A stretch of DNA of 64,000 nt from Streptomyces sp. NBC_01260 (GTDB lineage Bacteria > Actinomycetota > Actinomycetes > Streptomycetales > Streptomycetaceae), in assembly GCF_036226405.1 (NCBI RefSeq), contig NZ_CP108464.1, positions 5,580,001 to 5,644,000 on the forward strand, given 5' to 3'. Each line of letters opens with the position of its first letter. The first letter of the stretch is position 1. Positions 5,156 through 27,647 of this stretch are shown piece after piece. The notes under the pieces are model-generated. The model worked only from the letters and a program-made list of their open reading frames with translations. It did not search any database and was not told the origin of the DNA. The position numbers and the translations under genes are program-made.

Positions 5156-6769
5156 ATGGAACGCCGGACACGGACGCACGGCCGGGCACGGATGTGCCGA
5201 GGGGTGCTGGGGCTGCTCCTGGCGGGCGGGGTGCTGCTCACGGGCTGCTCGGGGGAGGGGACCGGCAGCAAGAGTTCCGCCTCGGACCGCCGGGGAGCGC
5301 CCGCCCCCGCCCCGGCCGCCACCGGCCCAGCCGCCGAGAGCGGTGCGAAGGACGGCGCGAAGGAGCCGGACGACGCGAAGAAGGGGGACGGGCTGAAGGA
5401 GTCCGCACCGCCCGACTACCTGTCCACCTTCGCCCTGGACGTGGACACCGCGTCCTACGGATACGCGCGCCGCACGCTCGCCGACGGCAGGCTGCCGGGG
5501 CCGCGGACCGTACGGCCGGAGGAGTTCGTCAACAGCTTCCGCCAGGGCTACCGGCGCCCGGCGGGCAACGGCTTCACCGTCTCCGTCGACGGGGCACGGG
5601 CCGGTGCCGGGGGCGGCGACTGGTCCTTGGTGCGGGTCGGCCTGGCGACCAGAGCCGCACCGAGCAGTGCCGAACGGCCGCCCGCCGCCCTCACCTTCGT
5701 CGTCGACATCTCCGGCTCGATGGCCGCCTCCGACCGGCTCGGCCTGGTGAAGACCTCACTCGGCATCCTCACCGACGAACTGCGCGACGACGACTCGGTC
5801 TCCCTGGTCACCTTCAGCGACGAGGCGAAGACCGTGCTGCCGATGACCCGGCTGCGGGACCACCGCGGAAGGATCCACGACGCCGTCGACTCCATGGAAC
5901 CCGCCGACTCCACCAATGTGGGGGCAGGCGTCCGGCGCGGCTACGAGGAGGCGGTGGACGGCCACCGCGAGGGCGCGAGCAACCGGGTCGTCCTGCTCTC
6001 CGACGCACTCGCCAACACCGGCGAGACCGACGCCGACGCGATCCTCGAACGGATCGGCTCCGCCCGCCGCGAGTACGGCATCACCCTGTTCGGCGTCGGG
6101 GTCGGCAGCGACTACGGCGACGCGCTGATGGAGCGGCTCACCGACAAGGGCGACGGCCACACCACGTACGTCGCCGACGAGGAGCAGGCCCGCAAGGTCT
6201 TCGTCGACCAGTTGCCCGCACACCTCGAACTGACGGCGCGCGACGCCAAGGCGCAGGTGGCCTTCGACCCGAAGACCGTCGAGAAGTTCAGGCTGATCGG
6301 TTACGAGGACCGCAAGGTCGCCGACGAGGACTTCCGCGACGACAGTGTGGACGGCGGCGAGGTCGGCCCCGGGCACACGGTGACGGCGCTCTACGCCGTG
6401 CGTCTGCGGGACGGCGCCTCGGGCCATGTGGCCACCGCGACGGTGCGCTGGCTGGACCCCACGTCCCGGGCCGCGCACGAGGAGACGGGTGCGGTGGAGA
6501 CCGGGGCGGTCGAGGGGAGGCTCTGGGGCGGCCGCAGCACCCGGCTCCAGGTGACGGCGGTGGCCGCCTACTTCGCCGACGCCCTGCGCGGCGGCGGCCT
6601 TCCGGGCGCGCCGGGACTCGGTGAACTGGCCTCCAGGGCCAAGACGCTGGCCGCGAGCACGGAGGACGAGTCGGTGGCGAAACTGGCCACCGCGATCGGT
6701 CGCGCGGACCGGCTCAGGGGCGGCCGGGGCGACACCGGAACGGGTACGGGAGAGGGCGAGATGGACTGA
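5156..6769 (+). CDS. lipoprotein with VWA and YfbK-type domains
   Basis: 537 residues from the ATG at 5156; an upstream in-frame GTG at 5126 is less likely because a purine-rich stretch sits just before the ATG. The signal peptide ends in the lipobox LLTGC, followed by a charged linker rich in Ala, Lys and Asp. A YfbK N-terminal domain (YLSTFALDVDTASYGYARRTL, RPEEFVNSFR) precedes a von Willebrand A domain with an intact MIDAS (DISGSM). A C-terminal DUF3520-like region follows. The protein should be anchored outside the membrane and bind a metal-dependent ligand. Its role in Streptomyces is unknown. It is monocistronic as far as spacing shows. Confidence 0.85.
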   Translation: MERRTRTHGRARMCRGVLGLLLAGGVLLTGCSGEGTGSKSSASDRRGAPAPAPAATGPAAESGAKDGAKEPDDAKKGDGLKESAPPDYLSTFALDVDTASYGYARRTLADGRLPGPRTVRPEEFVNSFRQGYRRPAGNGFTVSVDGARAGAGGGDWSLVRVGLATRAAPSSAERPPAALTFVVDISGSMAASDRLGLVKTSLGILTDELRDDDSVSLVTFSDEAKTVLPMTRLRDHRGRIHDAVDSMEPADSTNVGAGVRRGYEEAVDGHREGASNRVVLLSDALANTGETDADAILERIGSARREYGITLFGVGVGSDYGDALMERLTDKGDGHTTYVADEEQARKVFVDQLPAHLELTARDAKAQVAFDPKTVEKFRLIGYEDRKVADEDFRDDSVDGGEVGPGHTVTALYAVRLRDGASGHVATATVRWLDPTSRAAHEETGAVETGAVEGRLWGGRSTRLQVTAVAAYFADALRGGGLPGAPGLGELASRAKTLAASTEDESVAKLATAIGRADRLRGGRGDTGTGTGEGEMD

Positions 6770-9095: not shown

Positions 9096-10181
9096 TCAGA
9101 AGTCGAACGTGTCGATGTTCTTCTTGTCGAAGACGGTCGGCTTGCCGAGGATGACCTCGCCGTCCTTGCCGATCGTGTACTCGCCGAGCTTGCCCGCCTT
9201 GAACTTCTCACCCTGCGCGCCCGTGATCTGACCGGACGCCAGCGCCGCGGCGGCGTACGAACCGAGGTACCCCAGCTCCTCCGGGTTCCACAGCGAGAAC
9301 TGCTCGACGGTGTCGTCCTTGACGTACTTGCGCATCTGGTTCGGCGTGCCCAGGCCGTTCAGCACGACCTTGCCCTTGTACGAGGAGTCGCTCAGGTAGC
9401 GGGCGGCCGCCGCGATGCCGACGGTGGTGGGCGAGATGATGCCCTTCAGGTCGGGGTAGGCCTGCATCAGGCCCTGGGTCTGCTGGAACGACTTCTGGTC
9501 CGCGTCGTCCCCGTACGCCACCTTCACCAGCTTCATGTCCTTGTACTTGGGCAGCTTCAGCTCGTCCTTCATGAACTCGATCCAGGTGTTCTGGTTCGTC
9601 GCGTTCTGGGTGGCCGAGAGGATCGCGATCCTGCCCTGGTAGCCGATCTGCTCACCGAGGTGCTGGACCAGGCTGCGGCCGATCTCCTCGGAGCTCGCCT
9701 GGTTGATGAAGAGCTGGCGGCACTCCTTCGCGGTGTCCGAGTCGTACGCCACGACCTTGATGTTCTTCTTCATGGCCTGCTTCAGCGGACCGCACACCGC
9801 GTTCGGGTCGTTGGCGGCGACCAGGATCGCGTCCTGGCGCTGCTGGATCAGCGTGTTGATGTAGCTGACCTGCGAGGAGGCGCTGGCGTCGGACGGGCCG
9901 ACCTCCTTGCCCGTGCCGCCGTACTCCTTGGCCGCCTCGATCCCCGCGTCGTCGACGATCTTCTCGTACGGGTTGTTGATCTGCTTGGGCAGGAAGGCGA
10001 GCTTCAGCCCCTTCTTCAGCGCCGCACCCGGATCGGCCTTCGCCGTGGCCCCGGCCTTCGTGGACTCCTTGTCGGAACTGTCCTTCGTGGTGCCGGAACA
10101 GGCGCTGAGGGCGAGGGCGAGCGAGAGCGCGGTGGCGGCGGTGGCGACGGCGCGGCGCCCAGCGGCATTGCGGAGCATCAT
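9096..10181 (-). CDS. rhaS: rhamnose ABC transporter substrate-binding lipoprotein
   Basis: 361 residues. Signal peptide with lipobox LSACSG near residue 27, then a Lys/Thr-rich linker and a periplasmic-binding-protein-like fold of the ribose/rhamnose family (KLAFLPKQINNPYEKIVDDAGIEAAKE, QRQDAILVAANDPNAV, IKVVAYDSD). It should capture L-rhamnose outside the membrane and deliver it to the two permeases encoded upstream. Two consecutive ATG codons lie at the start; GAAAGG is 14 bases upstream, so the first is taken. The mutarotase gene directly downstream supports rhamnose as the substrate. Confidence 0.9.
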   Translation of the reverse strand: MMLRNAAGRRAVATAATALSLALALSACSGTTKDSSDKESTKAGATAKADPGAALKKGLKLAFLPKQINNPYEKIVDDAGIEAAKEYGGTGKEVGPSDASASSQVSYINTLIQQRQDAILVAANDPNAVCGPLKQAMKKNIKVVAYDSDTAKECRQLFINQASSEEIGRSLVQHLGEQIGYQGRIAILSATQNATNQNTWIEFMKDELKLPKYKDMKLVKVAYGDDADQKSFQQTQGLMQAYPDLKGIISPTTVGIAAAARYLSDSSYKGKVVLNGLGTPNQMRKYVKDDTVEQFSLWNPEELGYLGSYAAAALASGQITGAQGEKFKAGKLGEYTIGKDGEVILGKPTVFDKKNIDTFDF

Positions 10182-19125: not shown

Positions 19126-19170
19126 GCGCCCCCGGCAGGACTCGAACCTGCGGCCAAGCGCTTAGAAGGC
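19126..19170. repeat. left attachment-site repeat (att core, 45 bp)
   Basis: Identical over 45 bases to 27574-27618. It contains the tRNA-Arg 3' half (anticodon loop, TpsiC arm, acceptor) but is followed by unrelated sequence from 19171, so it is not a tRNA gene. It marks the chromosome/element junction distal to the integrase. Confidence 0.9.
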
Positions 19171-19230
19171 AACGTTACTAGCCAAGACTCTAACCAGGGA
19201 TGATGCACTCTCGCCACCCCCTGACCCCCT

Positions 19231-19272
19231 GCTAGGCACCTTGCGTAGGAACCCTTAGTGCAGGCGCCTAGC
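19231..19272. repeat. inverted repeat with integrase arm-like motif
   Basis: GCTAGGC (19231-19237) and GCCTAGC (19266-19272) form an inverted repeat 60 bases inside the left att copy. GCTAGGCA also occurs twice beside the right att copy. Candidate integrase arm-binding sites; it could also terminate transcription of the DUF2637 gene ending at 19322. Confidence 0.4.
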
Positions 19273-19321
19273 TTCCCCAGGATCGATTCTAAGGACGGGA
19301 CCCGGCTACGGGGACCGGACG

Positions 19322-20035
19322 CTAGGCCGTGAGTGCCAGGGCTTCCCTGATCTCCTTGTAGATCTTCGAGACGTAGGGATGGGACTTGCCCACCTTCTTC
19401 GCCGCCTCCGTAACCGAGAGCCCTTGAAGGAACGCATCCTTGATTCCTTGCTTAGTACTGGAGAGCTCCCCTTTCGGTCCGCTCTCCGTAACCTCTTTCT
19501 CCTCCGTCGTAACCAATGGCCCCGTAACCGTAACCAGGGGAACCGTAACCTTCTGCGTAACCTTCTTGGGCGTAACCACCTTCGTAACCCGTTCCTCCGT
19601 AACCAGAGCCAGGAGTGACGTCTCCAAGTCCCGGAACCTACGCCGGTAGATAGGAGCAACCTCGGAGGCACAGATCAGGATTGCAGGGGCTATGGCGTGG
19701 ATGGCTACTCCTACCCCATCCCTCTCCGCCACAGAACTCCATGTGTTGAGGAACAGAGAAGCCAGACCCGTAACCCACCTGAAGGCAGTAGGCCACTTCC
19801 CTCCATCCAGGCCATGCCTAGAGAGAACTGCATCGGCGGAGATAGAGAGGATGAAAGCAGCATCGGTAAGGACTCCTAGAGCCCAGCCTGACCACTGCCA
19901 TTGAGAGTGGGCGGAGACGAGTGGAGTACTGGTCATCAGTGAGTAGAAGACAGCCCCGGTTACGATCAGCCAGAGCATCGAGTTAACAAGCTTACGGGTC
20001 TTGGTTACGGACTTCAGTTCCTCGGTTACGTTCAT
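19322..20035 (-). CDS. DUF2637-type membrane protein with C-terminal helix-turn-helix
   Basis: 237 residues. Four membrane helices in the first 130 residues (KLVNSMLWLIVTGAVFYSL, WALGVLTDAAFILSISAD, TGLASLFLNTWSSVAE, VAIHAIAPAILICASEVAPI) match DUF2637, a family frequent on Streptomyces plasmids and integrative elements. A charged linker (about 135-195) packed with Val-Thr pairs leads to a helix-turn-helix (LSVTEAAKKVGKSHPYVSKIYKEI). This suggests a membrane-tethered DNA-binding protein. All 14 Val-Thr pairs coincide with a GGTTACG DNA repeat: GTA-ACC in the first three, GTT-ACG in the remaining eleven. A role in spread, segregation or transfer is inference. Confidence 0.8.
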   Translation of the reverse strand: MNVTEELKSVTKTRKLVNSMLWLIVTGAVFYSLMTSTPLVSAHSQWQWSGWALGVLTDAAFILSISADAVLSRHGLDGGKWPTAFRWVTGLASLFLNTWSSVAERDGVGVAIHAIAPAILICASEVAPIYRRRFRDLETSLLALVTEERVTKVVTPKKVTQKVTVPLVTVTGPLVTTEEKEVTESGPKGELSSTKQGIKDAFLQGLSVTEAAKKVGKSHPYVSKIYKEIREALALTA

Positions 20036-20195
20036 ACTTGGTTACGGTCCCTTCGGTTACGCGTTCCTGGTTACGGTTACGCTCCCTGGTTACGCACATT
20101 GGTTACGGCTACTGGTTACGGATGGATGGTTACGGATGGATGGTTACGGAGAGGGCCCGCTTATGCGGGACCCTCCCCTGAGTGTGTTGGTTACG
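19409..20195. repeat. orientation-polarised GGTTACG array (24 copies)
   Basis: Eleven copies read CGTAACC on the plus strand (19409, 19487, 19508, 19523, 19529, 19544, 19556, 19571, 19583, 19598, 19769). Thirteen read GGTTACG (19958, 20003, 20024, 20040, 20055, 20069, 20075, 20088, 20101, 20114, 20128, 20142, 20189). Orientation switches once, between 19775 and 19958. The first 14 lie inside the DUF2637 gene, the last ten in its upstream region. Spacing is irregular (6 to about 180 bases), unlike a simple tandem repeat. Confidence 0.9.
20151..20175 (-). terminator. hairpin terminator after the 73-residue gene
   Basis: GAGGGCCCGC, TTAT loop, GCGGGACCCTC (one bulged A). It lies about 38 bases beyond the stop at 20213 on the minus strand. 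Same design as other hairpins in this element. Confidence 0.5.
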
Positions 20196-20212
20196 GGTTC
20201 ATCGCTCCTCGG

Positions 20213-20434
20213 CTAGTCGAGAGAGCTACGGATCATGCAGATAGCTGTGGTCCTTCTGTTCTCTGCCATGTAGAGCTGACTACGGAACCGGCGGAGGTGA
20301 GGAGCAAGAGAGACAAGCTCCTTGAGGATGGCTATCTTCTCCTCCGCCCTCTGCTTCATGCCCTCCCAACCTCTGTGCCTGTTCTGTCGGTCTGCTATGG
20401 CTAGGAGGTAGAGAAGGGTATTGATCTGATCCAT
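20213..20434 (-). CDS. small basic protein of unknown function
   Basis: 73 residues, start ATG at 20434 with AAGGAG five bases upstream, a strong ribosome binding site. The sequence is mostly helical and rich in Arg, Lys, Leu and Ala (LLYLLAIADRQNRHRGWEGMKQRAEEKIAILKELVSLAPHLRRF). It has no cysteine cluster or membrane helix. I do not recognise a family. It sits upstream of the GGTTACG array, in the same direction as the DUF2637 gene. Confidence 0.6.
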   Translation of the reverse strand: MDQINTLLYLLAIADRQNRHRGWEGMKQRAEEKIAILKELVSLAPHLRRFRSQLYMAENRRTTAICMIRSSLD

Positions 20435-20577
20435 GGCTACTCCTTGATGGTTGTCGCTCTCCAGGTTCCTGGAAGAGCTGGTCTTACGGGTCGGGGCATA
20501 GCCCTCCCCTTGGCGGAGATGAAGAGGATGTCTCCCAGAGCACGGACCGGTAGGGGAGTGCTCGTAGGTTCCCTTGG

Positions 20578-20703
20578 CTACTGGTTCTTGGGCTGCTGAG
20601 TCAGTCGGGCAAGGACAGCAGGGTTCAGGAGAATGGACTCAGGGATTGCCTTGAGCTGCTTCCGGGTGAGGATGATGGGCTTGGGCTTCTTGGAACTGAA
20701 CAT
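20578..20703 (-). CDS. 41-residue microprotein
   Basis: Reads MFSSKKPKPIILTRKQLKAI ... PAVLARLTQQPKNQ to a TAG at 20578-20580. AAGGGA stands about 11 bases before the ATG, the same leader wording (GGGACCA) that precedes other genes of this element. Basic, with a central amphipathic helix. No family recognised. It is supported by start context and element-like codon use only. Confidence 0.5.
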   Translation of the reverse strand: MFSSKKPKPIILTRKQLKAIPESILLNPAVLARLTQQPKNQ

Positions 20704-20773
20704 GGTTGGTGGTCCCTTCGATTCAGGATGCGTAGCCTTGGCGGAGCATCCGTAAGTGTCTGGTCATGAATAA

Positions 20774-20800
20774 GGGCCCCTCTCCTTACGGTCGGGGCCC
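20774..20800. terminator. GGGCCCC hairpin
   Basis: GGGCCCC (20774-20780) and GGGGCCC (20794-20800) with a 13-base loop, between the iteron block and the 41-residue gene. On the minus strand it is followed by TTATTC. Probably a terminator separating the two transcription units. Confidence 0.5.
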
Positions 20801-20979
20801 TGGGTGTTGCAGTGCTTCTCTTACCCTCCGCCAAGACCACGACGGGCTACCGGAGGAGTGGTCGTTAGATCTCTTCTGGTCTTACGGGGATCGCTCCCTA
20901 CCGGTCGGCTCACCCCTTGGTTGCCTGGCCTTCTTCTTCCTCCGCCAGACTCTCTAGGTCTCTGGATCTGTGGGGCTCT

Positions 20980-21125
20980 TACTCTGTGCATAAGTTGTAC
21001 CCGAGGACCGGTCTCTACTCTGTGCATAAGTCGTACCCCTGAGACTGGATGAGACGAGAGCTTCTACTCTGTGCATAAGTCGTACCCCAGGACTGCACCC
21101 CCTTACTCTGTGCATAAGTCGTACC
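20980..21125. repeat. four 22-bp iterons (candidate replication or partition site)
   Basis: Direct repeats at 20980, 21016, 21065 and 21104 sharing TACTCTGTGCATAAGTCGTA plus CC (the first has one T for C). On the minus strand each contains TTATGCACA, one base from the DnaA-box consensus TTATCCACA. Centre spacings are 36, 49 and 39 bases. The last copy touches the stop codon of the gene at 21125-21622. No coding frame covers the block. Confidence 0.8.
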
Positions 21126-21622
21126 TACCACTCCGTTGGGTCCAGCTCCTCTAGCTCCTGGTCGTCTGCCCCCAACTCGTCTTCCTCCTGGTAGAACCAC
21201 CCGGACCGAACCCCGACTTCAAGGGTGTAGGTGGTCTTGGCTCCCCTCTTCTGACCGACCACTGTCTTGGTTATCCAGCCGGACCTTTCCAGCACCTTGA
21301 CTCCACCTTGGACGTAGGCAATGTGCCTGCCTGCCTTGTCGATAGTCCCCACTGCATCGGCTAGAGACCGCTCAGGGATAGTCACCTCACAGCCTTCACC
21401 GGCAAGCCTGGCCAACTGTCGGGCTACGTCCCTTGCACTCCGTGGAACGTGGAGCCTGGCCTCCCAATACCAGTCAGCAGCCTGACCAATCGGGGGAGTG
21501 TGCTCGGCAGCCATGGCGAACTTCCTCTTCTTCAGCTTCCGCCGGTGCTCCTCTATCTCCGCCGAGTAGGCAGTGAGGATGTTGACGGTCTTCTTCTGCT
21601 GGGTGGTCTTGCGTCGGCTCAT
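21125..21622 (-). CDS. winged-helix-like protein adjoining the iterons
   Basis: 165 residues from an ATG at 21622 with AAGGAG seven bases upstream. Basic N-terminus (MSRRKTTQQKKTVN), then a region reading like two helix-turn-helix segments: ARDVARQLARLAGEGCEVTIPERSLADAVGTIDKAGRHIAYVQGGVKVLERSGWI, with the pattern of a winged-helix replication or partition protein. The tail is acidic (EEDELGADDQELEELDPTEW). Its 3' end abuts four iterons, the arrangement expected for an iteron-binding initiator or a centromere-binding protein. No named Rep family is recognised, so the role is inference. Confidence 0.6.
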   Translation of the reverse strand: MSRRKTTQQKKTVNILTAYSAEIEEHRRKLKKRKFAMAAEHTPPIGQAADWYWEARLHVPRSARDVARQLARLAGEGCEVTIPERSLADAVGTIDKAGRHIAYVQGGVKVLERSGWITKTVVGQKRGAKTTYTLEVGVRSGWFYQEEDELGADDQELEELDPTEW

Positions 21623-21863
21623 GTGCTGGTCTCCTTCTGGTTGGTGACATGCGAAAGGGGCCCTCACCGGATGGGTAAGAGCCCCTTGGGTTGGGGGTGT
21701 TGCTGCTCAGGGAGGCGGACCGTAAGGGAGCACTCCCGTTGTTCCTTCAATGCCCCTGTGTGCCTCTGCGCTGGCCTGTCAGATCCTCTTGGTACTCAGG
21801 GAGCCTGCATGTCCGCTGTCCCTGTACAGGGGCTCTCAGGGCCTTCTAAGTGGGCGTACGAAA

Positions 21864-21891
21864 GGGAGGGCCGGTTAACCCGGCCCCTCCC
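21864..21891 (-). terminator. intrinsic terminator after the Phd-like gene
   Basis: GGGAGGGCCGG, TTAA loop, CCGGCCCCTCCC, followed on the minus strand by TTTCGT. It begins 16 bases beyond the stop of the antitoxin-like gene and closes the GIY-YIG/Phd operon. Confidence 0.7.
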
Positions 21892-21906
21892 GTGGGGTCT
21901 TACTGG

Positions 21907-22065
21907 TTACTGCATCAAGTCCCGAGTCAGACGCTGGTATCTCTCCTGGCTAATGATGACTGCCTGAGTGCTCCCGTACCGAGTCAGCTCTACCGTCTGC
22001 CCCTGCTCTGCTACTCGGATCAGTTCGGGGAGTCGTGCCTTTGCCTCTGTCGTAGCCACCTTCAT
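21907..22065 (-). CDS. Phd/YefM-type antitoxin-like protein
   Basis: 52 residues: MKVATTEAKARLPELIRVAE, a GQTVELTRYGSTQAVIISQERY strand-helix block and a short tail. This is the N-terminal dimerisation and DNA-binding fold of Phd/YefM antitoxins (usual start M..VS.SEAR..L.EL...V..G). It is shorter than typical members (75-90 residues), lacking most of the toxin-neutralising tail. It starts in the stop codon of the GIY-YIG gene (TGATG), so translation is coupled. No RelE, Doc or PIN toxin gene follows; a terminator does. Confidence 0.75.
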   Translation of the reverse strand: MKVATTEAKARLPELIRVAEQGQTVELTRYGSTQAVIISQERYQRLTRDLMQ

Positions 22066-22748
22066 CAGATACCCCAATCGTCGTCGTCTGCTTCGGTCTC
22101 TTCGTCGGCCTGCTCTGTCTGCCGGGGATCGGTCTTGAACTCCCCAGTGAGGCGCCCCTCCTTGATGCCAAGCTTCTCTGCCCACTCGGCCGCATGGCTC
22201 TTGGTTCCCTTGGCGCCCATGTGCTTCTTCTCCTGCCACTGCTGGAACTTCTCTATGGCTTCTGCTGCCTCGGGGTGGATGCCCTGTTCCTCGGCCCACT
22301 TGAGTAGGGAAGGGTCTGCATGGAACTGCTCCATGCGTCCGGCCACTCGAAGGTGTAGCCACTGGCTATGGATCAGAAGCTCTGTGCTGGTCCCTCCCTT
22401 GAGAACAGCCAGCACCTGGACCGGAACACCCTTGTGCTTCTGGTAGCTGTTAGAGATGGTCTGGAGCCTGCTCAGGTCTTCCTTGCCGGTCTTGCCCAGC
22501 TTGATGTTCCCGTTGTCCATGCGGATGACATAGGTCCATCCCTTGGTGTGCTTCTCCTTGAAGAAGCCTTCCTCTTCCATCTCCGCCACTAGCTCTCTGG
22601 CCTTAGTGCTCTGGTGTGCAGCCAAGTTCCATGAGTCGTCGTCACAGAGGTTGATGGTGAAGGTGGCAGTACCCGTGTCATAGATCCTGGGCCTGCCTTC
22701 CCTGGTGCAGTCGTTGGCTGAACACGTGCTGGTCTGGTCCTCGGTCAT
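22065..22748 (-). CDS. GIY-YIG (T5orf172/MUG113-like) domain protein
   Basis: 227 residues from an ATG with AAGGGA eight bases upstream. An N-terminal cysteine motif (TCSANDCTREGRPRIY ... NLCDDD) may bind zinc. The central domain reads GWTYVIRMDNGNIKLGKT, RLQTISNSYQKHKGVPVQVLAVLKGGTSTELLIHSQW, matching the T5orf172/MUG113 branch of GIY-YIG: YVI strand, 'IKLGKT' for IKIGxT, catalytic-type Glu in STELLIH. The C-terminal part contains a predicted SAP/Lsr2-like helix pair (KSHAAEWAEKLGIKEGRLTGEF) and an acidic tail. Probable DNA-binding nuclease. It forms an operon with the antitoxin-like gene. Confidence 0.7.
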   Translation of the reverse strand: MTEDQTSTCSANDCTREGRPRIYDTGTATFTINLCDDDSWNLAAHQSTKARELVAEMEEEGFFKEKHTKGWTYVIRMDNGNIKLGKTGKEDLSRLQTISNSYQKHKGVPVQVLAVLKGGTSTELLIHSQWLHLRVAGRMEQFHADPSLLKWAEEQGIHPEAAEAIEKFQQWQEKKHMGAKGTKSHAAEWAEKLGIKEGRLTGEFKTDPRQTEQADEETEADDDDWGI

Positions 22749-22868
22749 GTCTGGTCCCTTCGATCAGGGGCGAGCGTAAGCAGAGCCCCGTGAGTGTGCC
22801 TGTGTGGCTGTGTGCTGGTTCCTGAGTGTGCGTCTGGGGAGTTGCTAGGGATAGCCCCTGACAGGCTC

Positions 22869-23018
22869 TTAGATGGGCCTACAGAGGGTTGCCCCCGTAC
22901 CTCTCTTGCCCTGGCGTGGCTGGCAGTGGCTACCGAATGCCCTCTTGCTAGGAAAGTCCTGCCGACAGATCGGGCACCTGAGTTGGGCAGAACGAGTCTT
23001 GACGTAGAAACGCTTCAT
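22869..23018 (-). CDS. zinc-finger microprotein (49 residues)
   Basis: Start ATG at 23018 with AAGGAGGA ten bases upstream. Reads MKRFYVKTRSAQLRCPICRQ, then DFPSKRAFGSHC: a CxxC knuckle followed 13-14 residues later by HC, the layout of a single C2HC/C2H2 finger. The remainder is basic and Gly-rich. Such proteins on mobile elements may act as excisionase-like or regulatory DNA-binding factors; this is inference. The strong ribosome binding site is the main evidence that it is expressed. Confidence 0.6.
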   Translation of the reverse strand: MKRFYVKTRSAQLRCPICRQDFPSKRAFGSHCQPRQGKRGTGATLCRPI

Positions 23019-23046
23019 GGTGTTGGTCCTCCTTGGATCAAAAAAA

Positions 23047-23071
23047 GGGCAGGCCGGTTATCCGGCTGCCC
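23047..23071 (-). terminator. intrinsic terminator with T-tract
   Basis: GGGCAGGCCGG, TTAT, CCGGCTGCCC with seven A immediately to its left (23040-23046), i.e. a minus-strand hairpin followed by seven T. Between it and 24140 there is no convincing minus-strand gene, so it should end a non-coding transcript or a long leader. Confidence 0.8.
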
Positions 23072-23114
23072 GTGGGGTGGGTCGTGCTGTGTTGGTCCAC
23101 CTCTGGTCAAAAGG

Positions 23115-23151
23115 AAGAGGCCCGATCCTCACTGGGAGAACCGAGCCTCTT
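23115..23151 (-). terminator. second hairpin in the non-coding stretch
   Basis: AAGAGGC (23115-23121) pairs with GCCTCTT (23145-23151); on the minus strand the stem is followed by CCTTTTG. It could be a terminator or part of a folded RNA. Confidence 0.4.
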
Positions 23152-23277
23152 ACCTTGTGCTCACGCATTGAGCTTGAAGGGACCAACCTTCTTCTGCCAC
23201 CTGCTGTCACTGCTGTCCGGTTGCCCGGAAGAGTCGAGGTGGAGTCTTGGGGTGTGGAGGGGAGCTGCTGTGTGCTC

Positions 23278-23632
23278 AGCTCTGCCGGGTAACCGGCGAG
23301 CGATGAACCCTCACTAGTGTATGTAGGCGGACGGTGGCCATGAGCGTCCGCTCGTTACCCAACTTTCTTGGCCTTCTACATCTCGGGGAGCGTCGCGGAG
23401 ACCTTCGAGAGGCTCAACACTTCGTTCCCTCACTACTAGATATAGGCGAATGTTGCCGTTCGCTACTCGCTACGTTACCAAACCTTTACCAGCTTCGCCA
23501 GGAAACCTGGCAAGCGATGAACTATGACTCTCTGCCCTGGTGCTGGGGGAGGTGGCGGAGAGGGAAGGGAGGGGCTGTAGCTGCCTGTTCCCTCACTAAT
23601 AGATGTAGGCGTTTCTGGCGGATCGAGAAACG
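23278..23632 (-). other. non-coding stretch with repeated cores and co-varying inverted repeats
   Basis: Three copies of a core (CCCTCACTA, three variable bases, then ATRTAGGCG on the plus strand) at 23308, 23427 and 23590. Each ends in its own inverted repeat: GCGGACG/CGTCCGC, GCGAA/TTCGC, CGTTTCT/AGAAACG. The stem sequences differ but pairing is kept. A second element, AGC..GCC-hairpin-GGC.AGCGATGAAC, occurs at 23278-23308 and 23491-23522 with stems GCCGG/CCGGC and GCCAGG/CCTGGC. A minus-strand terminator with T-tract lies at 23047. This could be a repeated structured RNA or a set of promoter-operator units. Confidence 0.55.
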
Positions 23633-23728
23633 TCCCCTGCCCAATCTCATCCTTGAGTATGACCAGCACTGCCCCTCGACTACTGCCCTCGTAGTACGTG
23701 AACTGTCACAGGTGTGGCTCACAACCTA

Positions 23729-23746
23729 GGCCCGCTAATGCGGGCC
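23729..23746. terminator. GGCCCGC-TAAT-GCGGGCC hairpin
   Basis: Perfect seven-base stem with a TAAT loop, of the same design as other hairpins in this element. The flanking stretch 23747-24113 holds no gene I can support. Confidence 0.5.
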
Positions 23747-24113
23747 CATTGCCTGGCCATTCATATGTAGTAGTCGAGCCACCTCTCTCTATCTATGAAT
23801 GCAGAGCCCTGCACCTCTCCTCTTTTCCCTCCGCCTGCCCCTGGCTGAATGCATCTGGACCAGAGAGCAAGACAACACAGCGTGACATCCTTTTCCCTCA
23901 TTCTCTACGTAGAGTGACCCGGGGATGCTTAATTCAGGCCCGTGGGTGTGTGTGTGAGACCCATTAGAAATGCAACATGGATCACAGGACACGGGTATGG
24001 GGGGTCGCCCTCTGGGGTGGGGTTTCTATAGTCCCTCTCAGAACGGGTCATAATCGTGAATATCCCATGGTCTTGCCGGCCGGAGACCACTATTTCCCTC
24101 CGCCAACGCCAAA

Positions 24114-24133
24114 GGGCCCGCCAATGCGGGCCC
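24114..24133 (-). terminator. GGGCCCGC-CAAT-GCGGGCCC hairpin
   Basis: Perfect eight-base stem. It starts seven bases after the stop of the minus-strand gene at 24141-24398 and is followed on that strand by TTTGG. Confidence 0.65.
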
Positions 24134-24140
24134 CTGGTTC

Positions 24141-24398
24141 TCAATATCTCTCCCATGGTGACCTCTGTGGTCGCAATGGCCTCCATCCTTCTGGTGCCAG
24201 TGCTTCTCCTGACCCCCACATCCGATAACACATGCTCAACCAGGCTTCTGCTCCTCCCCTGTGCCTCCACTCAAGAGGTAAGAGGTTGGGGCCTACTGGA
24301 TGAGAGGTATCGGGGAGGGTGCAGTAACCCCAGAGGTCTCTGTCGAGGATCACGTATCCGCTCTGGTCCGGCTTTGAGATCACCACGTACCGAGTCAT
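24141..24398 (-). CDS. small protein of unknown function
   Basis: 85 residues if the ATG at 24398 is used; a TTG 24 bases upstream would add eight. It starts MTRYVVISKPDQSGYVILDRDLWGYCTL, a plausible beta-rich domain with many aromatic residues (WGYC, LEWRHR, AWLSMCYRMW). No family recognised. The stop is followed at once by a perfect hairpin terminator, which supports it being a gene. It is divergent from the XRE regulator gene, with 119 bases between the starts. Confidence 0.5.
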   Translation of the reverse strand: MTRYVVISKPDQSGYVILDRDLWGYCTLPDTSHPVGPNLLPLEWRHRGGAEAWLSMCYRMWGSGEALAPEGWRPLRPQRSPWERY

Positions 24399-24517
24399 GG
24401 CCTGGAGACTGGCCAACCACAAGGGAAGTCCGCAGCGACAGAAGGGGCGTCATGTGGGTGTCTCCGAGGGCGTCAAACCGGTGTCATTGCGCAGGTGTTC
24501 GGACTACCGTGAGCCTC

Positions 24518-25285
24518 ATGACCACACCTACCAGGAGAGCTAACGCCACACTCCGGGCTGTCCGCATGGGGCTGCTGCTGAGCCAGGACGACCTAGCCCG
24601 GAAGCTCAGAGAAGCAGGAGACAAGGCAGGGGAACCGAACGGGGCATCCAAGAGGCTCGTACAGCGCTGGGAGTCCGGAGCCAGCATCAACCCCCGGGCT
24701 GTCTACGCCAGGGCTCTGGAGGCTGTCACAGGGCTTCCTATCCATGCTCTGGGCTTTGAGATGGCAGTGCCAGAAGGAGTCTCTGATGATGGCAGGGGAG
24801 GGCATGACCTTTCCTCTTCTTCCTCCGCCACATCTTCCAGTCAATCCCCGAGCCCGGTTAACGGGCTCGGCAGAGGGAACTACTCCGGCATCTGGCTGTC
24901 TCGCTATGAATACTTCTCCAGTGGCAGGGAGAACACTTACACCGGTCTGCATTACGTGGTTCTCCTTCAGCATGGAAACAGGATCACTGTTCGCTCTCTC
25001 CCCGGTTCCTCTGACTCTCCTCTGACTATGGATCTGGCAGTGGAGGGGAATGTCATTACGGGAACCTGGAAAGAGCAGACCGCTGGCACTGGCTACTATC
25101 AGGGGGCTGTCTACCACGGAGCAATACAGCTACTGGCAGAACCTACTGGGCGGAGGATGACAGGGAAGTGGGTTGGCTTCGGTAAGGAGTTCGACGTCAA
25201 TACCGGACCCTGGGAACTGGTCTTCAAGGATGCCTCTACCAACAAGGGTTCCTTGGAGAAGTTCAACACCCCACCTGTTCAGTGA
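24518..25285 (+). CDS. XRE-type helix-turn-helix regulator with C-terminal beta domain
   Basis: 255 residues from the ATG at 24518 (a GTG at 24509 is in frame). Residues about 8-65 form an XRE helix-turn-helix: MGLLLSQDDLARKLREAG, ASKRLVQRWESGASINPRAVYARALEAVTGLPIHALGF. A Ser-rich linker precedes a C-terminal domain with regular beta-strand spacing (GNYSGIWLSRYEYFSSG, HYVVLLQHGNRITVRSLPGS, GNVITGTWKEQT, MTGKWVGFGKEFDVNTGPWEL) that may sense a ligand. Probably the element's control gene. A hairpin terminator follows the stop. Confidence 0.75.
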   Translation: MTTPTRRANATLRAVRMGLLLSQDDLARKLREAGDKAGEPNGASKRLVQRWESGASINPRAVYARALEAVTGLPIHALGFEMAVPEGVSDDGRGGHDLSSSSSATSSSQSPSPVNGLGRGNYSGIWLSRYEYFSSGRENTYTGLHYVVLLQHGNRITVRSLPGSSDSPLTMDLAVEGNVITGTWKEQTAGTGYYQGAVYHGAIQLLAEPTGRRMTGKWVGFGKEFDVNTGPWELVFKDASTNKGSLEKFNTPPVQ

Positions 25286-25297
25286 CCGCATGACAAA

Positions 25298-25326
25298 GGA
25301 CGGGCCCGCTTATGCGGGGCCCGTCC
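25298..25326 (+). terminator. terminator after the XRE gene
   Basis: GGACGGGCCCGC, TTAT, GCGGGGCCCGTCC (one bulged base), 12 bases beyond the stop. Confidence 0.7.
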
Positions 25327-25428
25327 GTAGGTCTAGAAGCCTCTGTGTGCCTGTCTAAGGGCCTGGCAGCTAGGTCCTGTTTCTCGGATCTCCTGACCTG
25401 CGAGGGGTGTTGGGGCCAGGCTGGGTTC

Positions 25429-25842
25429 ATGGGCCGTGGGGATCTGACGAATGCGGAGTGGGATCGGCTGGAGTCGTTCCTACCTCCTGGTGGTACGCGT
25501 GGAGGTCGGTGGAGCGATCACCGCCGGGTGATCAACGGGGTTCTCTACCGGGTGCGGACCGGCGTGCAGTGGCGGGATCTGCCGGAGCGATTCGGGCCAT
25601 GGGAGACGGTCTATAAACGACATCGTCGCTGGTCAGCCGATGGAACCTGGCAGATGCTGCTGTCTCGCATCCAGGTAGCCGAGGACGCCGAGGGCGGCAT
25701 CGACTGGGACGTGTCGGTGGACTCGACAGCCGTGCGAGCCCACCAGCACGCCGCCGGTGCGAGGAAAGCGCCCCCGGCCGCCGTCCCTCAAAGGGGGCCA
25801 AGTGGGGGACGAACCAGGTCGATCCGGTACTGCGGAGACTGA
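25429..25842 (+). CDS. IS5-family transposase, N-terminal frame (orfA)
   Basis: 137 residues. Begins MGRGDLTNAEWDRLESFLPP, then GGRWSDHRRVINGVLYRVRTGVQWRDLPERFGPWETVYKRHRRW, the DUF4096 N-terminal domain of IS5 transposases, and the first catalytic Asp in WDVSVDSTAVRAHQHAAGA. The frame ends at 25842. The catalytic core continues in the other frame, so a full enzyme needs ribosomal frameshifting in the overlap 25757-25842. Confidence 0.88.
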   Translation: MGRGDLTNAEWDRLESFLPPGGTRGGRWSDHRRVINGVLYRVRTGVQWRDLPERFGPWETVYKRHRRWSADGTWQMLLSRIQVAEDAEGGIDWDVSVDSTAVRAHQHAAGARKAPPAAVPQRGPSGGRTRSIRYCGD

Positions 25843-26359
25843 CCATCCGCCTGGAGGAGGTGGTCAGGTCGGCGAATGTCTGGGACGTTCCCGCGGAGGA
25901 TTCACCACCAAGATCCACCTCGTTGCCGAGGGACGATGCCGGCCCCTCGCCTTCGTCCTGACACCCGGACACTACGGAGACGGACCCCAGCTCGAGCGGG
26001 TGCTGGAACAGGTTCTGGTGCCGCGAGCCGGAGTCGGCCGGCCACGCACCCGGCCCGACCATGTCTTGGCGGACAAGGCCTACACGTCCCGGAAGAACCG
26101 CCGCTACCTGCGACGACGCGGAATCCGGCACACCATCCCCGAACGTCTCGACCAGCAGAGACACCGCAAGAACCGAGGTTCACGCGGCGGTCGGCCTACC
26201 GGTTTCGACAGCGAGCTCTACAAGAAGCGCAACACCGTCGAACGCACCATCAACCGCCTCAAAGGCTTCCGCGCCGTCGCGACCCGCTACGAGAAACGCG
26301 CCTACATCTACCTCGGCACCGTCACACTCGCAGCACTCATGATCTGGCTCCGTACATGA
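25757..26359 (+). CDS. IS5-family transposase, C-terminal frame (orfB)
   Basis: The frame gives the DDE core: RSRGGFTTKIHLVAEGRCRPLAFVLTPGHYGD, second Asp in RPDHVLADKAYTSRKNRRYLRRRGI, and the Glu in the helix FDSELYKKRNTVERTINRLKGFRAVATRYEKRAYIY. It has no own start with a ribosome binding site and overlaps orfA in another frame, so it is expected to be made as an orfA-orfB fusion by frameshift. The C-terminus MIWLRT lies at the right inverted repeat. Confidence 0.88.
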   Translation: MRGKRPRPPSLKGGQVGDEPGRSGTAETDHPPGGGGQVGECLGRSRGGFTTKIHLVAEGRCRPLAFVLTPGHYGDGPQLERVLEQVLVPRAGVGRPRTRPDHVLADKAYTSRKNRRYLRRRGIRHTIPERLDQQRHRKNRGSRGGRPTGFDSELYKKRNTVERTINRLKGFRAVATRYEKRAYIYLGTVTLAALMIWLRT

Positions 26360-26374
26360 TCCGAGAAACAGGAC

Positions 26375-27400
26375 CTAGTACCTGTCTCCCTGGCTCTTGA
26401 CTGCCTTCACGGCCCGTGTGGTGGCCATGTCGGCTGCATACCTCTTGAGCATGGTCCTGTCTTTCCACCCCGCCACAGTCATGACGTCTTCACCAGAGAC
26501 CCCGGCGGAGAGAAGGTCATCAGTGAAGGTGTGCCGGAACTGGTGAGGAGAGACCGACCCATAGCCACAGTCCTTAGCTCTCCGCCCGAGCATCCTGTAG
26601 AGACCGGAGTAGGTGAGCCTGCCCCTGTTCCTTGAGCCGAGCCACAGCCATTCCCCCTCACTCAGCTTGTGATTCTCCCTGGCCCTGAGATACCGAGTCA
26701 GAGCAACCACTGTCTTGGGCTGAAGGGGGATGATCCTGCCTTCTCCTGCTGCCCTGGCATCCTTCAGGGGAACTACCTGCAAGAGCCCTTGTTCCAGGTG
26801 GAGGTAATCAAGGCGGAGGGTGAGGAGTTCTTCAGCCCTGAGTCCTTCAGTGAGAACACGGATGATGGCGTGGTCCCTGACCTTTTCGAAGTCCCTGACT
26901 CTCGGGTGCCCGTTACCGGTCACCTTGAGGAGTTCACCAATGAAGTCATGGCTGAGGGTCTTGGGCTTTGCTCCAGTGGGAGGGGCGTACCTCTGAAGCT
27001 TCTTGTCCCGATAGGGATTGGGGATGTCGTACTCAGCTTCCAGGTATGAGCAGAACGTCCGCAGGTTCCTCTGAAGGGTGTTCGTACCTCCCTGGTCATG
27101 CCCGTTGAAGTACCAGCGGAAGAACCGGTTGAGGAGAGCTGTGTCCAGAGAGAGGAAGTCTTCTTCCATGCCCTCTGCTGTCATCCACTGGTCCAGAGCC
27201 CTGACTGCCTTGCAGTAGGCCGTGACCGTCTTCTCCTGGTAGGGCCTGCCGTGCTTGTTGTTGCTGGCCCTGAGATGGGTGGCGTAGTCCTGCTGGAAGG
27301 CTGCTCTGACGGCTGACTGGTCAAGCTGGTCCGGGACTGCCCTGAGCGTGGTGGTGGGGCTGCTGCTGGCCCTGAGCGGAGATCGAAGCTGTGCCGACAT
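26375..27400 (-). CDS. int: tyrosine recombinase (integrase) of the element
   Basis: 341 residues from an ATG preceded by AGGGAG. An N-terminal core-binding SAM-like domain (YATHLRASNNKHGRPYQEKTVTAYCKAVRALDQWM) is followed by the catalytic domain with Arg in TEGLRAEELLTLRL, HxxR in SPHQFRHTF, Trp in VAGWKD (the His/Trp position) and the nucleophile Tyr in LKRYAAD. It should integrate the element at the tRNA-Arg 3' end next to it. The IS5-type insertion lies exactly at its TAG stop (26375-26377) but recreates it, so the protein is unchanged. No excisionase gene is recognised. Confidence 0.93.
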   Translation of the reverse strand: MSAQLRSPLRASSSPTTTLRAVPDQLDQSAVRAAFQQDYATHLRASNNKHGRPYQEKTVTAYCKAVRALDQWMTAEGMEEDFLSLDTALLNRFFRWYFNGHDQGGTNTLQRNLRTFCSYLEAEYDIPNPYRDKKLQRYAPPTGAKPKTLSHDFIGELLKVTGNGHPRVRDFEKVRDHAIIRVLTEGLRAEELLTLRLDYLHLEQGLLQVVPLKDARAAGEGRIIPLQPKTVVALTRYLRARENHKLSEGEWLWLGSRNRGRLTYSGLYRMLGRRAKDCGYGSVSPHQFRHTFTDDLLSAGVSGEDVMTVAGWKDRTMLKRYAADMATTRAVKAVKSQGDRY

Positions 27401-27422
27401 GGTCTGACTCCCTGGAACGGGA

Positions 27423-27492
27423 GCTAGGCAAGGGCCGGTCGTCTGGTCGCCTCCCTGAGCAAGCTCGGATCGGCTAGGCACCTCACCTAGCC
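27423..27492. promoter_or_regulatory. candidate integrase arm-binding sites
   Basis: GCTAGGCA at 27423-27430 and 27473-27480; the second is part of the inverted repeat GGCTAGG/CCTAGCC (27472-27492). The same octamer stands near the left att copy. Location between int and att fits arm-type sites. Confidence 0.4.
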
Positions 27493-27573
27493 CTTACGAG
27501 TAGGTGAGTAACGTCGGCTTCTCCGCTCCGCCTGACCCGTACTGGCTGGTCAGACGACATCGGCTGGGCTGAA

Positions 27574-27618
27574 GCGCCCCCGGCAGGACTCGAACCTGCG
27601 GCCAAGCGCTTAGAAGGC
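27574..27618. repeat. right attachment-site repeat (att core, 45 bp)
   Basis: Identical to 19126-19170 over 45 bases. Here it forms the 3' part of the intact tRNA-Arg gene. Confidence 0.9.
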
Positions 27619-27647
27619 GCCTGCTCTATCCACTGAGCTACGGGGGC
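27575..27647 (-). tRNA. tRNA-Arg(TCT)
   Basis: 73 bases on the minus strand folding as a cloverleaf: acceptor GCCCCCG/CGGGGGC, D-stem GCTC/GAGC, anticodon stem GGCGC/GCGCT around loop CTTCTAA (anticodon TCT, reading AGA), TpsiC stem GCAGG/CCTGC with TTCGAGT, discriminator G. No CCA is encoded. Its 3' part is also the integration site of the neighbouring element. Confidence 0.95.

Follow-up and report, generated by a model that had tools for sequence, protein, structure and literature searches.

A polar, element-specific DNA word overlaps the coding sequence of its putative membrane-bound reader

Results

The array lies in a small integrated element

Within the window (the whole 64-kb stretch of Streptomyces DNA analyzed here), an integrated element lies between two 45-bp copies of the 3' end of a tRNA-Arg gene, at 19126-19170 and 27574-27618. 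It measures 8,448 bp from copy to copy and has a G+C content below that of its surroundings. Some 240 bp from the first of these copies begins an array of 24 copies of a 7-bp, nonpalindromic word, GGTTACG, inside and beside the gene of a 237-aa protein. The features are as follows, with the strand in parentheses:

19126..19170 (no strand): att duplicate, 45 bp, at the element end nearest the array; copy of the tRNA-Arg 3' end
19322..20035 (-): gene of the 237-aa DUF2637-type protein, with four long helices, a disordered linker and a C-terminal HTH, all predicted
19328..19471 (-): predicted C-terminal three-helix HTH, residues 189-236; supported by the structure model and by weak, sub-threshold hits to HTH_3 and HTH_23
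19472..19573 (-): linker predicted to be disordered, residues 155-188; mostly pLDDT below 50, with the low-confidence stretch of the model at 157-189
19574..20029 (-): predicted membrane domain, residues 3-154; helices 3-43, 47-73, 80-103 and 107-154 in the model
19409..19775 (-): in-gene arm of the array, 11 GGTTACG on the coding strand
19958..20195 (+): opposite arm of the array, 13 GGTTACG
20975..21132 (no strand): four iteron-like direct repeats around TACTCTGTGCATAAGTCGTACC, a family separate from the array
21125..21667 (-): 180-aa protein; relatives in L070, L044 and L071, that is, 3 of 8 sister loci (described below) at E<=1e-8
22065..22748 (-): endonuclease-like protein of 227 aa; matches a PHROG endonuclease family (E 9.8e-7) and has relatives in all 8 sister loci compared
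26375..27481 (-): tyrosine integrase, from library scans
27574..27647 (-): tRNA-Arg(tct), the integration site; the second att copy spans 27574-27618

The element also encodes a Phd-like antitoxin (below Pfam's cut-off) and a regulator. Its longest open reading frame, within 19126-27618, is 409 aa long, and no TraB or phage structural gene was found among the element ORFs scanned. No Rep was identified in the element either, and the repeats at 20975-21132 match the description of iterons better than the array does. These repeats adjoin the 3' end of the 180-aa gene and are possibly binding sites for its product or a replication origin. The 180-aa protein itself has no library match and, judged by eye, is possibly a winged-helix protein. 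Transposase-like frames, also recognized by eye, occupy about 25312-26359; together with two 21-bp inverted repeats (25370-25390 and 26358-26378), they look like an insertion within the element.

The structure model of the 237-aa protein (mean pLDDT 77.6, pTM 0.50, from a 14-row alignment) predicts a membrane domain joined by a flexible linker to an HTH. The initial annotation had named its gene DUF2637. A Pfam scan of the protein gives no DUF2637 match, but the name survives through homology, as the membrane domain is related to that of proteins annotated DUF2637 (tblastn, 27 plasmid records, many of them so annotated, best E 3e-21). A fold search of the model against the PDB gave no match at E<=0.001. 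Sequence searches of the PDB gave a best E of 0.011 with the alignment, to an uncharacterised protein, and of 0.035 with the HTH alone, to AM32.

The word is polar, sharp and written into codons

On the plus strand, 13 copies of GGTTACG (19958-20195) and 11 of CGTAACC (19409-19775) are separated by a single switch of orientation, just as the initial annotation had described. The probability of such a two-run arrangement of 11 and 13 copies is 8e-7. The same annotation had the motif pointing outward from about 19.87 kb; the switch is there, but "outward" depends on the strand chosen for writing the motif. Ten copies of the opposite arm lie upstream of the gene, at -160 to -11 from its start, and three lie within its first 80 bases, so that the gene (19322-20035, minus strand) holds 14 copies.

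The word is confined to this one place in the element. The initial annotation had named equal frequency without polarity elsewhere in the element as a refuting outcome, which was not seen: there are no further GGTTACG copies in the element outside the array, and the rest of the 64-kb window has one, at 6299. The 24 copies, which were gathered by exact match, are invariant at all seven positions. Their flanks are mixed and one-mismatch variants in 19351-20260 number one per strand, indicating that the word is sharp. Across its own whole genome, the pattern GGTTACG N{2,30} GGTTACG has 23 matches, 18 of them within the array. Triples of GGTTACG occur in 62 of 392 same-genus genomes, 17 times in the window's genome and at most 5 times in each of the others; among the matches listed, tandem or Gly-Tyr-Gly type repeats predominate by eye. 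In viral contigs, word triples give at least 120 stretches each and are not diagnostic.

Inside the gene, the word is read as Val-Thr. Nine of the 11 copies of the in-gene arm encode this pair between residues 145 and 183; one lies at residue 88, in the membrane domain, and one at residue 208, in the HTH. Of the 11, six fall in the linker, encoding residues 159-183, and another three fall at the end of the fourth helix. As had been claimed, the in-gene copies account for every Val-Thr pair of the protein: all 14 use motif codons (GTT-ACG after G in 11, GTA-ACC after C in 3), and the orientation of these codons is that of their arm. If Val and Thr codons were drawn as in three other genes of the element, a Val-Thr pair would be written in motif codons with probability 0.057. 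When the Val and Thr codons were shuffled within the gene 200,000 times, motif pairs averaged 5.2 and never exceeded 12, against the 14 observed, and synonymous permutation of the whole gene gave a mean of 2.25 and a maximum of 7 GGTTACG (3,000 shuffles) against 11. In the codon shuffling that had been proposed at the outset, observed motif use thus exceeds every shuffle. A chance origin of the array is ruled out by the copy counts, the two-run probability and these shuffles.

Sister elements carry their own words

We compared the locus with a set of sister loci: L044-L049, L011/L070, L012/L071, L075 and L076, where L076 equals L045, L048 equals L010 and L049 equals L013, each counted once. 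Six of them (L044-L048 and L070) are bounded by tRNA-end duplicates that delimit elements of 8.48-8.96 kb in tRNA-Ser, tRNA-Cys or tRNA-Arg genes. Relatives of the integrase, endonuclease-like and Phd-like proteins occur in 8 of 8 loci compared.

Arrays are found in six sisters, with words of two classes: VTAACG in L044, L046 and L048, and RGTTCAS in L011, L045 and L075. The genes of L012, L047 and L049 have no excess of RGTTCAS, and no other comparable array was found in them. In the window and the six sisters, in-gene forward copies of the class word number 8-14, compared with permutation means of 1.8-2.9. In each of the 7 unique array-bearing genes, synonymous permutation gave p=0.0003, the lowest value that 3,000 shuffles allow; the class words were picked from the same loci, and the p-values are thus not independent of that choice. 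When exact 7-mers were tested by permutation, the degenerate words of L010 and L011 went undetected and L044 reached p 0.06.

The sister words are not tied to one peptide. VTAACG is used in two frames, as Leu-Thr or Val-Thr in one and as Ser-Asn-Ala, Thr-Asn-Ala, Ala-Asn-Gly or Gly-Asn-Gly in the other, and RGTTCAS is used in three; the amino-acid guises of the sister words include Leu-Thr, Ser-Asn-Ala, Val-Gln and Gly-Ser. Because one DNA word recurs in two or three frames, it is the DNA that is selected and not the peptide. A homologous Val-Thr near the N terminus makes the same point on a small scale: it is GTA-ACC in the window and GTT-ACC or GTT-ACT in L044, L046 and L048, matching the local word each time. 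The proposal that the DNA word and its polarity, rather than the dipeptide, are under selection therefore holds, and the opposite outcome, homologues that keep Val-Thr in random synonymous codons, was not seen in the sister genes.

Polarity extends upstream of several of these genes. In the 400 bp upstream, forward and reverse copies number 0/10 in the window, 0/4 in L044, 0/5 in L046, 2/9 in L048 and 0/12 in L011. Polarity is imperfect at two loci: L048 has three forward copies, at -365, -171 and +13, as well as a reverse copy at +669, and L046 has a reverse copy at +615. These upstream sets, including the ten window copies close to the start codon and the 4-12 reverse copies of L044, L046, L048 and L011, are what one would expect if the array were an operator only, with the HTH or another regulator repressing its own gene and the in-gene copies extending the repression complex. 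That account fits poorly with L045 and L075, which have 13-14 copies in the gene and 0/0 in the 400 bp upstream. It is also rare for an operator to require 7-18 copies in the later stretch of a gene. We therefore regard an operator-only role as doubtful, and the plasmids described below weigh further against it.

The sister loci also bear on whether the array consists of sites for another protein of the element, whether integrase arm sites, replication iterons or sites of the 180-aa protein. The array starts close to an att copy, and the element encodes further likely DNA-binding proteins. However, L048, which has another word, and L049, which has no array, both encode integrases 76% identical to that of the window, and the 180-aa protein has its own repeat family nearby and a match in only 3 of the 8 sister loci. 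Integrase arm sites are rejected on the integrase comparison, and we consider a different reader within the element, taken as a whole, quite improbable.

Several smaller features of the sister loci were recorded. L045 has one GGTTACG in Trp-Val-Thr codons that match the window's +260 copy, possibly a relic of a window-type word. Words of the TCTCCCCGCT type are repeated upstream of the gene in L012, L047 and L011 and are perhaps sites of another protein; a word of this type is the most repeated in L047 and among the most repeated in 3 kb of L012, both of which are without an HTH array. A G+C-rich 23-nt hairpin of the AGGGCCCGCTTATGCGGGACCCT type occurs four times in the window's element (20152-20174, 23727-23749, 24113-24135 and 25301-25323); it is terminator-like without a clear T run, and similar hairpins were seen by eye near the gene in L011 and L012. 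L048 encodes an AAA_25 ATPase (L048:5844-6920), of a kind known from plasmid replication proteins; none was seen in the window's element.

The pattern extends to plasmids and chromosomes

The pattern is broader than first described, and the window's array is one instance of a widespread one. In the related genes, too, the arrays sit in the stretch that joins membrane domain and HTH. From 88 loci on chromosomes, viral contigs, phages, two plasmids and the window, we assembled 77 unique genes (identical genes were merged, L052 and L053 are truncated, and genes under 450 bases were skipped in the permutation table). At least four forward copies of CGTGAAC occur in 39 of the 77. These genes hold 296 forward and 3 reverse copies, a forward count that is inflated by the selection for at least four and does not represent independent events, the genes being related. 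In the same 39 genes, the 600 bp upstream hold 3 forward and 49 reverse copies and the downstream flanks 2 and 2. As in the sister elements, upstream copies, where present, are mostly opposite to in-gene copies.

At the one chromosomal locus examined for its neighbors, L072, the surroundings resemble an integrative conjugative element: the gene is followed by one of FtsK/TraB type and then by genes of a primase/polymerase and an integrase. The best-word test was not significant for the chromosomal CGTGAAC-type genes L018, L024, L025, L026, L030, L034 and L101 (p 0.05-0.58). Chromosomal L014-L017 and L077 have no comparable array, nor do the phiC31-type phage homologues, whose best words reach 3-5 copies. 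Two different addresses coexist in the genome of the window, where another gene of this kind contains CGTGAAC 7 times and GGTTACG not at all.

For plasmids, we analyzed 20 of 29 distinct records from three tblastn searches, leaving out two further S. californicus, two S4.7 and five more distant records. Arrays are present in 17 of the 20 genes, with the word CGTGAAC in 8, CGTGAGC in 7 and CGCGAAC in 2; L113, L119 and L043 lack these words and have no comparable array. Together the 17 genes hold 191 forward and 27 reverse copies of their words, and each has 0-2 forward copies of the other two. The best 7-mer of the gene exceeds permutation at p<=0.005 in 16 of 20, although for L042, L104, L109 and L114 the word tested was a shifted or related one (CGCTCAC, CCGCGAA, TGAACGC and CGCTCAC, respectively) and not the class word. 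Where the word is CGTGAAC, reverse copies precede the forward array or fall early in it; where it is CGTGAGC, most of them are found toward the end of that array. Polarity is weak in the zaomyceticus gene, with 7 forward and 5 reverse CGTGAGC; pJV1 has 9 and 3. In both, the best word is CGCTCAC, found in both orientations (5 and 6). In L103 (pSN22), motif copies run on 3' of the annotated DUF2637 gene, which stops early and has a divergent C terminus, suggesting a frameshift either in the record or in the gene.

The 600 bp upstream of the 17 array-bearing plasmid genes contain no copies at all, which again argues against an operator. The plasmids also allow us to weigh the objection that a repetitive linker peptide written in biased codons produces the array as an artefact. 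In the 39 CGTGAAC genes, 293 of 296 copies share one frame, reading Arg-Glu in an Arg/Glu-rich linker, as this objection predicts. In the plasmids, however, the words occupy two frames in 15 of 17 genes; in pWTY27, for instance, CGCGAAC contributes to Arg-Glu in one frame and to Ala-Asn in the other. Together with the noncoding upstream copies elsewhere, the synonymous permutations and the few near-miss copies, the use of two or three frames per word contradicts a peptide or codon artefact for the window and most plasmids examined, and we regard it as highly improbable. It is near certain that a polar, element-specific word is selected at the DNA level in the window, the array-bearing sisters and most plasmids examined.

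The word follows the HTH

If each word has its own reader, the C-terminal HTH encoded by the same gene is the proposed candidate. L045 is a case in point. Its membrane domain is 82% identical to the window's, while its HTH is 43% identical to the window's, 59% to that of L011 and 86% to that of L075. The word of L045 is that of L011 and L075, and so follows the HTH. The linker and HTH may pass on as one block, in which case L045 supports recognition without proving it.

HTH type and word also agree among the plasmids. Those with QR[QS] followed by GWVA have CGTGAGC in 6 of 6 (pSN22 is not comparable), those with GWS[VIL]GWVS have CGTGAAC in 8 of 8, and those with GWSVAWVSD have CGCGAAC in 2 of 2. 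A nearest-neighbor test on 16 of the 17 plasmid genes, without pSN22, assigned the right word in 16 of 16 by membrane domain and in 15 of 16 by HTH, and is uninformative on which domain predicts the word. The array is probably bound by the protein's own C-terminal HTH, in line with the suggestion in the initial annotation that the locally encoded HTH is the cognate protein.

Discussion

Several known systems resemble parts of this arrangement. The closest precedent is SpdA2 of pIJ101, which binds a palindrome, sps, inside its own gene; synonymous removal of sps or deletion of the gene lowers segregational stability and leaves transfer unaffected (PMC4170104). The two cases share a Streptomyces plasmid DNA-binding protein with its site in its own coding region (PMC4170104). 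They differ in the site, since sps is a 12-bp palindrome, CGTCACGTGACG, present in one to three copies and common to different plasmids (PMC4170104), whereas the array word is asymmetric, polar, element-specific and present in 7-24 copies. They also differ in the protein: SpdA proteins, as described there, have 117-163 aa and are of another kind, and the product of the array gene has a predicted membrane domain. The exact sps, CGTCACGTGACG, was not found in the 20 plasmid loci, several of which hold part of a plasmid.

A second parallel is SpdB2 of pSVH1, an integral membrane protein that oligomerises, binds DNA non-specifically and interacts with TraB (PMC4170104). The likeness lies in a membrane-bound, oligomeric, DNA-binding protein, and the difference in binding that is reported as non-specific (PMC4170104). 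No pSVH1 record was among the hits of the three tblastn plasmid searches. pWTY27 has an ORF like SpdB2 of pSG2 (PMC3583192), which the accessible text of that report does not equate with the DUF2637 gene. A third is gp25 of phage phiC31 and its relatives, with a membrane domain about 50% identical and an HTH-like C-terminal end; unlike the array-bearing elements described here, the phage genes examined have no comparable array.

Short repeated words are also read for DNA movement, as in KOPS, the polarised motif that FtsK reads across the host chromosome, and the initial annotation had looked to a TraB or FtsK translocase as the reader. Under this explanation, the array would be a recognition site (clt/TRS-like) through which the FtsK-like TraB of a helper element moves this one. 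The repeats are indeed short and polar, a helper would be required since none of the element's ORFs is as long as a TraB, L072 adjoins an FtsK/TraB-type gene, and several plasmid relatives lie near traB. But where clt is known, it has other words in other places. The clt of pWTY27 consists of TGACACC and CCCGCCC repeats, footprinted and bound by the TraB-type protein (PMC3583192); we located these words at 9805-9889, beside the tra gene and away from the DUF2637 gene with its CGCGAAC array. Likewise, the clt word of pJV1 is CCGCACA[CG][CG] (PMC3583192), and five such words lie at 33-81 of the pJV1 record, away from the DUF2637 gene, whose array word is CGTGAGC. These differences, together with a longest element ORF of only 409 aa, speak against a translocase as the reader. 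We consider the array unlikely to be a TraB (clt) site and give that explanation little credence.

What, then, would a membrane protein do with copies of a word in its own gene? Intramycelial spreading is a long-known trait of Streptomyces plasmids. We propose that each HTH binds one 7-bp copy and that the protein, clustered in the membrane, would gather the copies of its own gene and, in the window's element, the opposed upstream set. Element DNA could thereby be held at the membrane, or loaded there, in a defined direction. The likeliest use in Streptomyces would be the spreading of the element through mycelial septa or its retention at division, and the upstream arm might incidentally control the gene of the protein. 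As a function, loading or tethering at the membrane, in the service of spreading or retention, is the best we can propose and is unproven; on balance, we lean toward it over gene regulation alone. Streptomyces sp. NBC_01383 holds two plasmids (L106 and L111) with the same word, which counts against a strict role in partition incompatibility.

Taken as a whole, the array seems reasonably likely to be a polar, element-specific DNA address that overlaps the coding sequence of its putative reader. The pattern suggests self-recognition, in which the protein, by reading its own gene, would identify the DNA that carries it. More speculatively, there may be a protein class whose gene doubles as a cis-acting address, in which the protein's own HTH reads a polar, multi-frame array so that a membrane pore picks and orients its own DNA among orthogonal elements; this broader proposal is possible but tentative.

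The arrays are relevant to how spread proteins choose their own DNA, as SpdB2 is described only as a non-specific binder in the available part of the report (PMC4170104). They supply an exact, element-specific word for each protein and hence a direct test. They are also a case of heavy, multi-frame overlap of a DNA site with coding sequence, and the pairs of HTH and word offer material for a recognition code and for orthogonal tethers. In a search by title and start of abstract, which left most subscription literature uncovered, we found no description of arrays in DUF2637 or spdB genes.

Finally, the seven elements delimited here, including the window's, all measure 8.45-8.96 kb despite their different tRNA genes and partly shared gene content. 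A size limit on packaging or transfer is a conceivable reason for these near-equal lengths.
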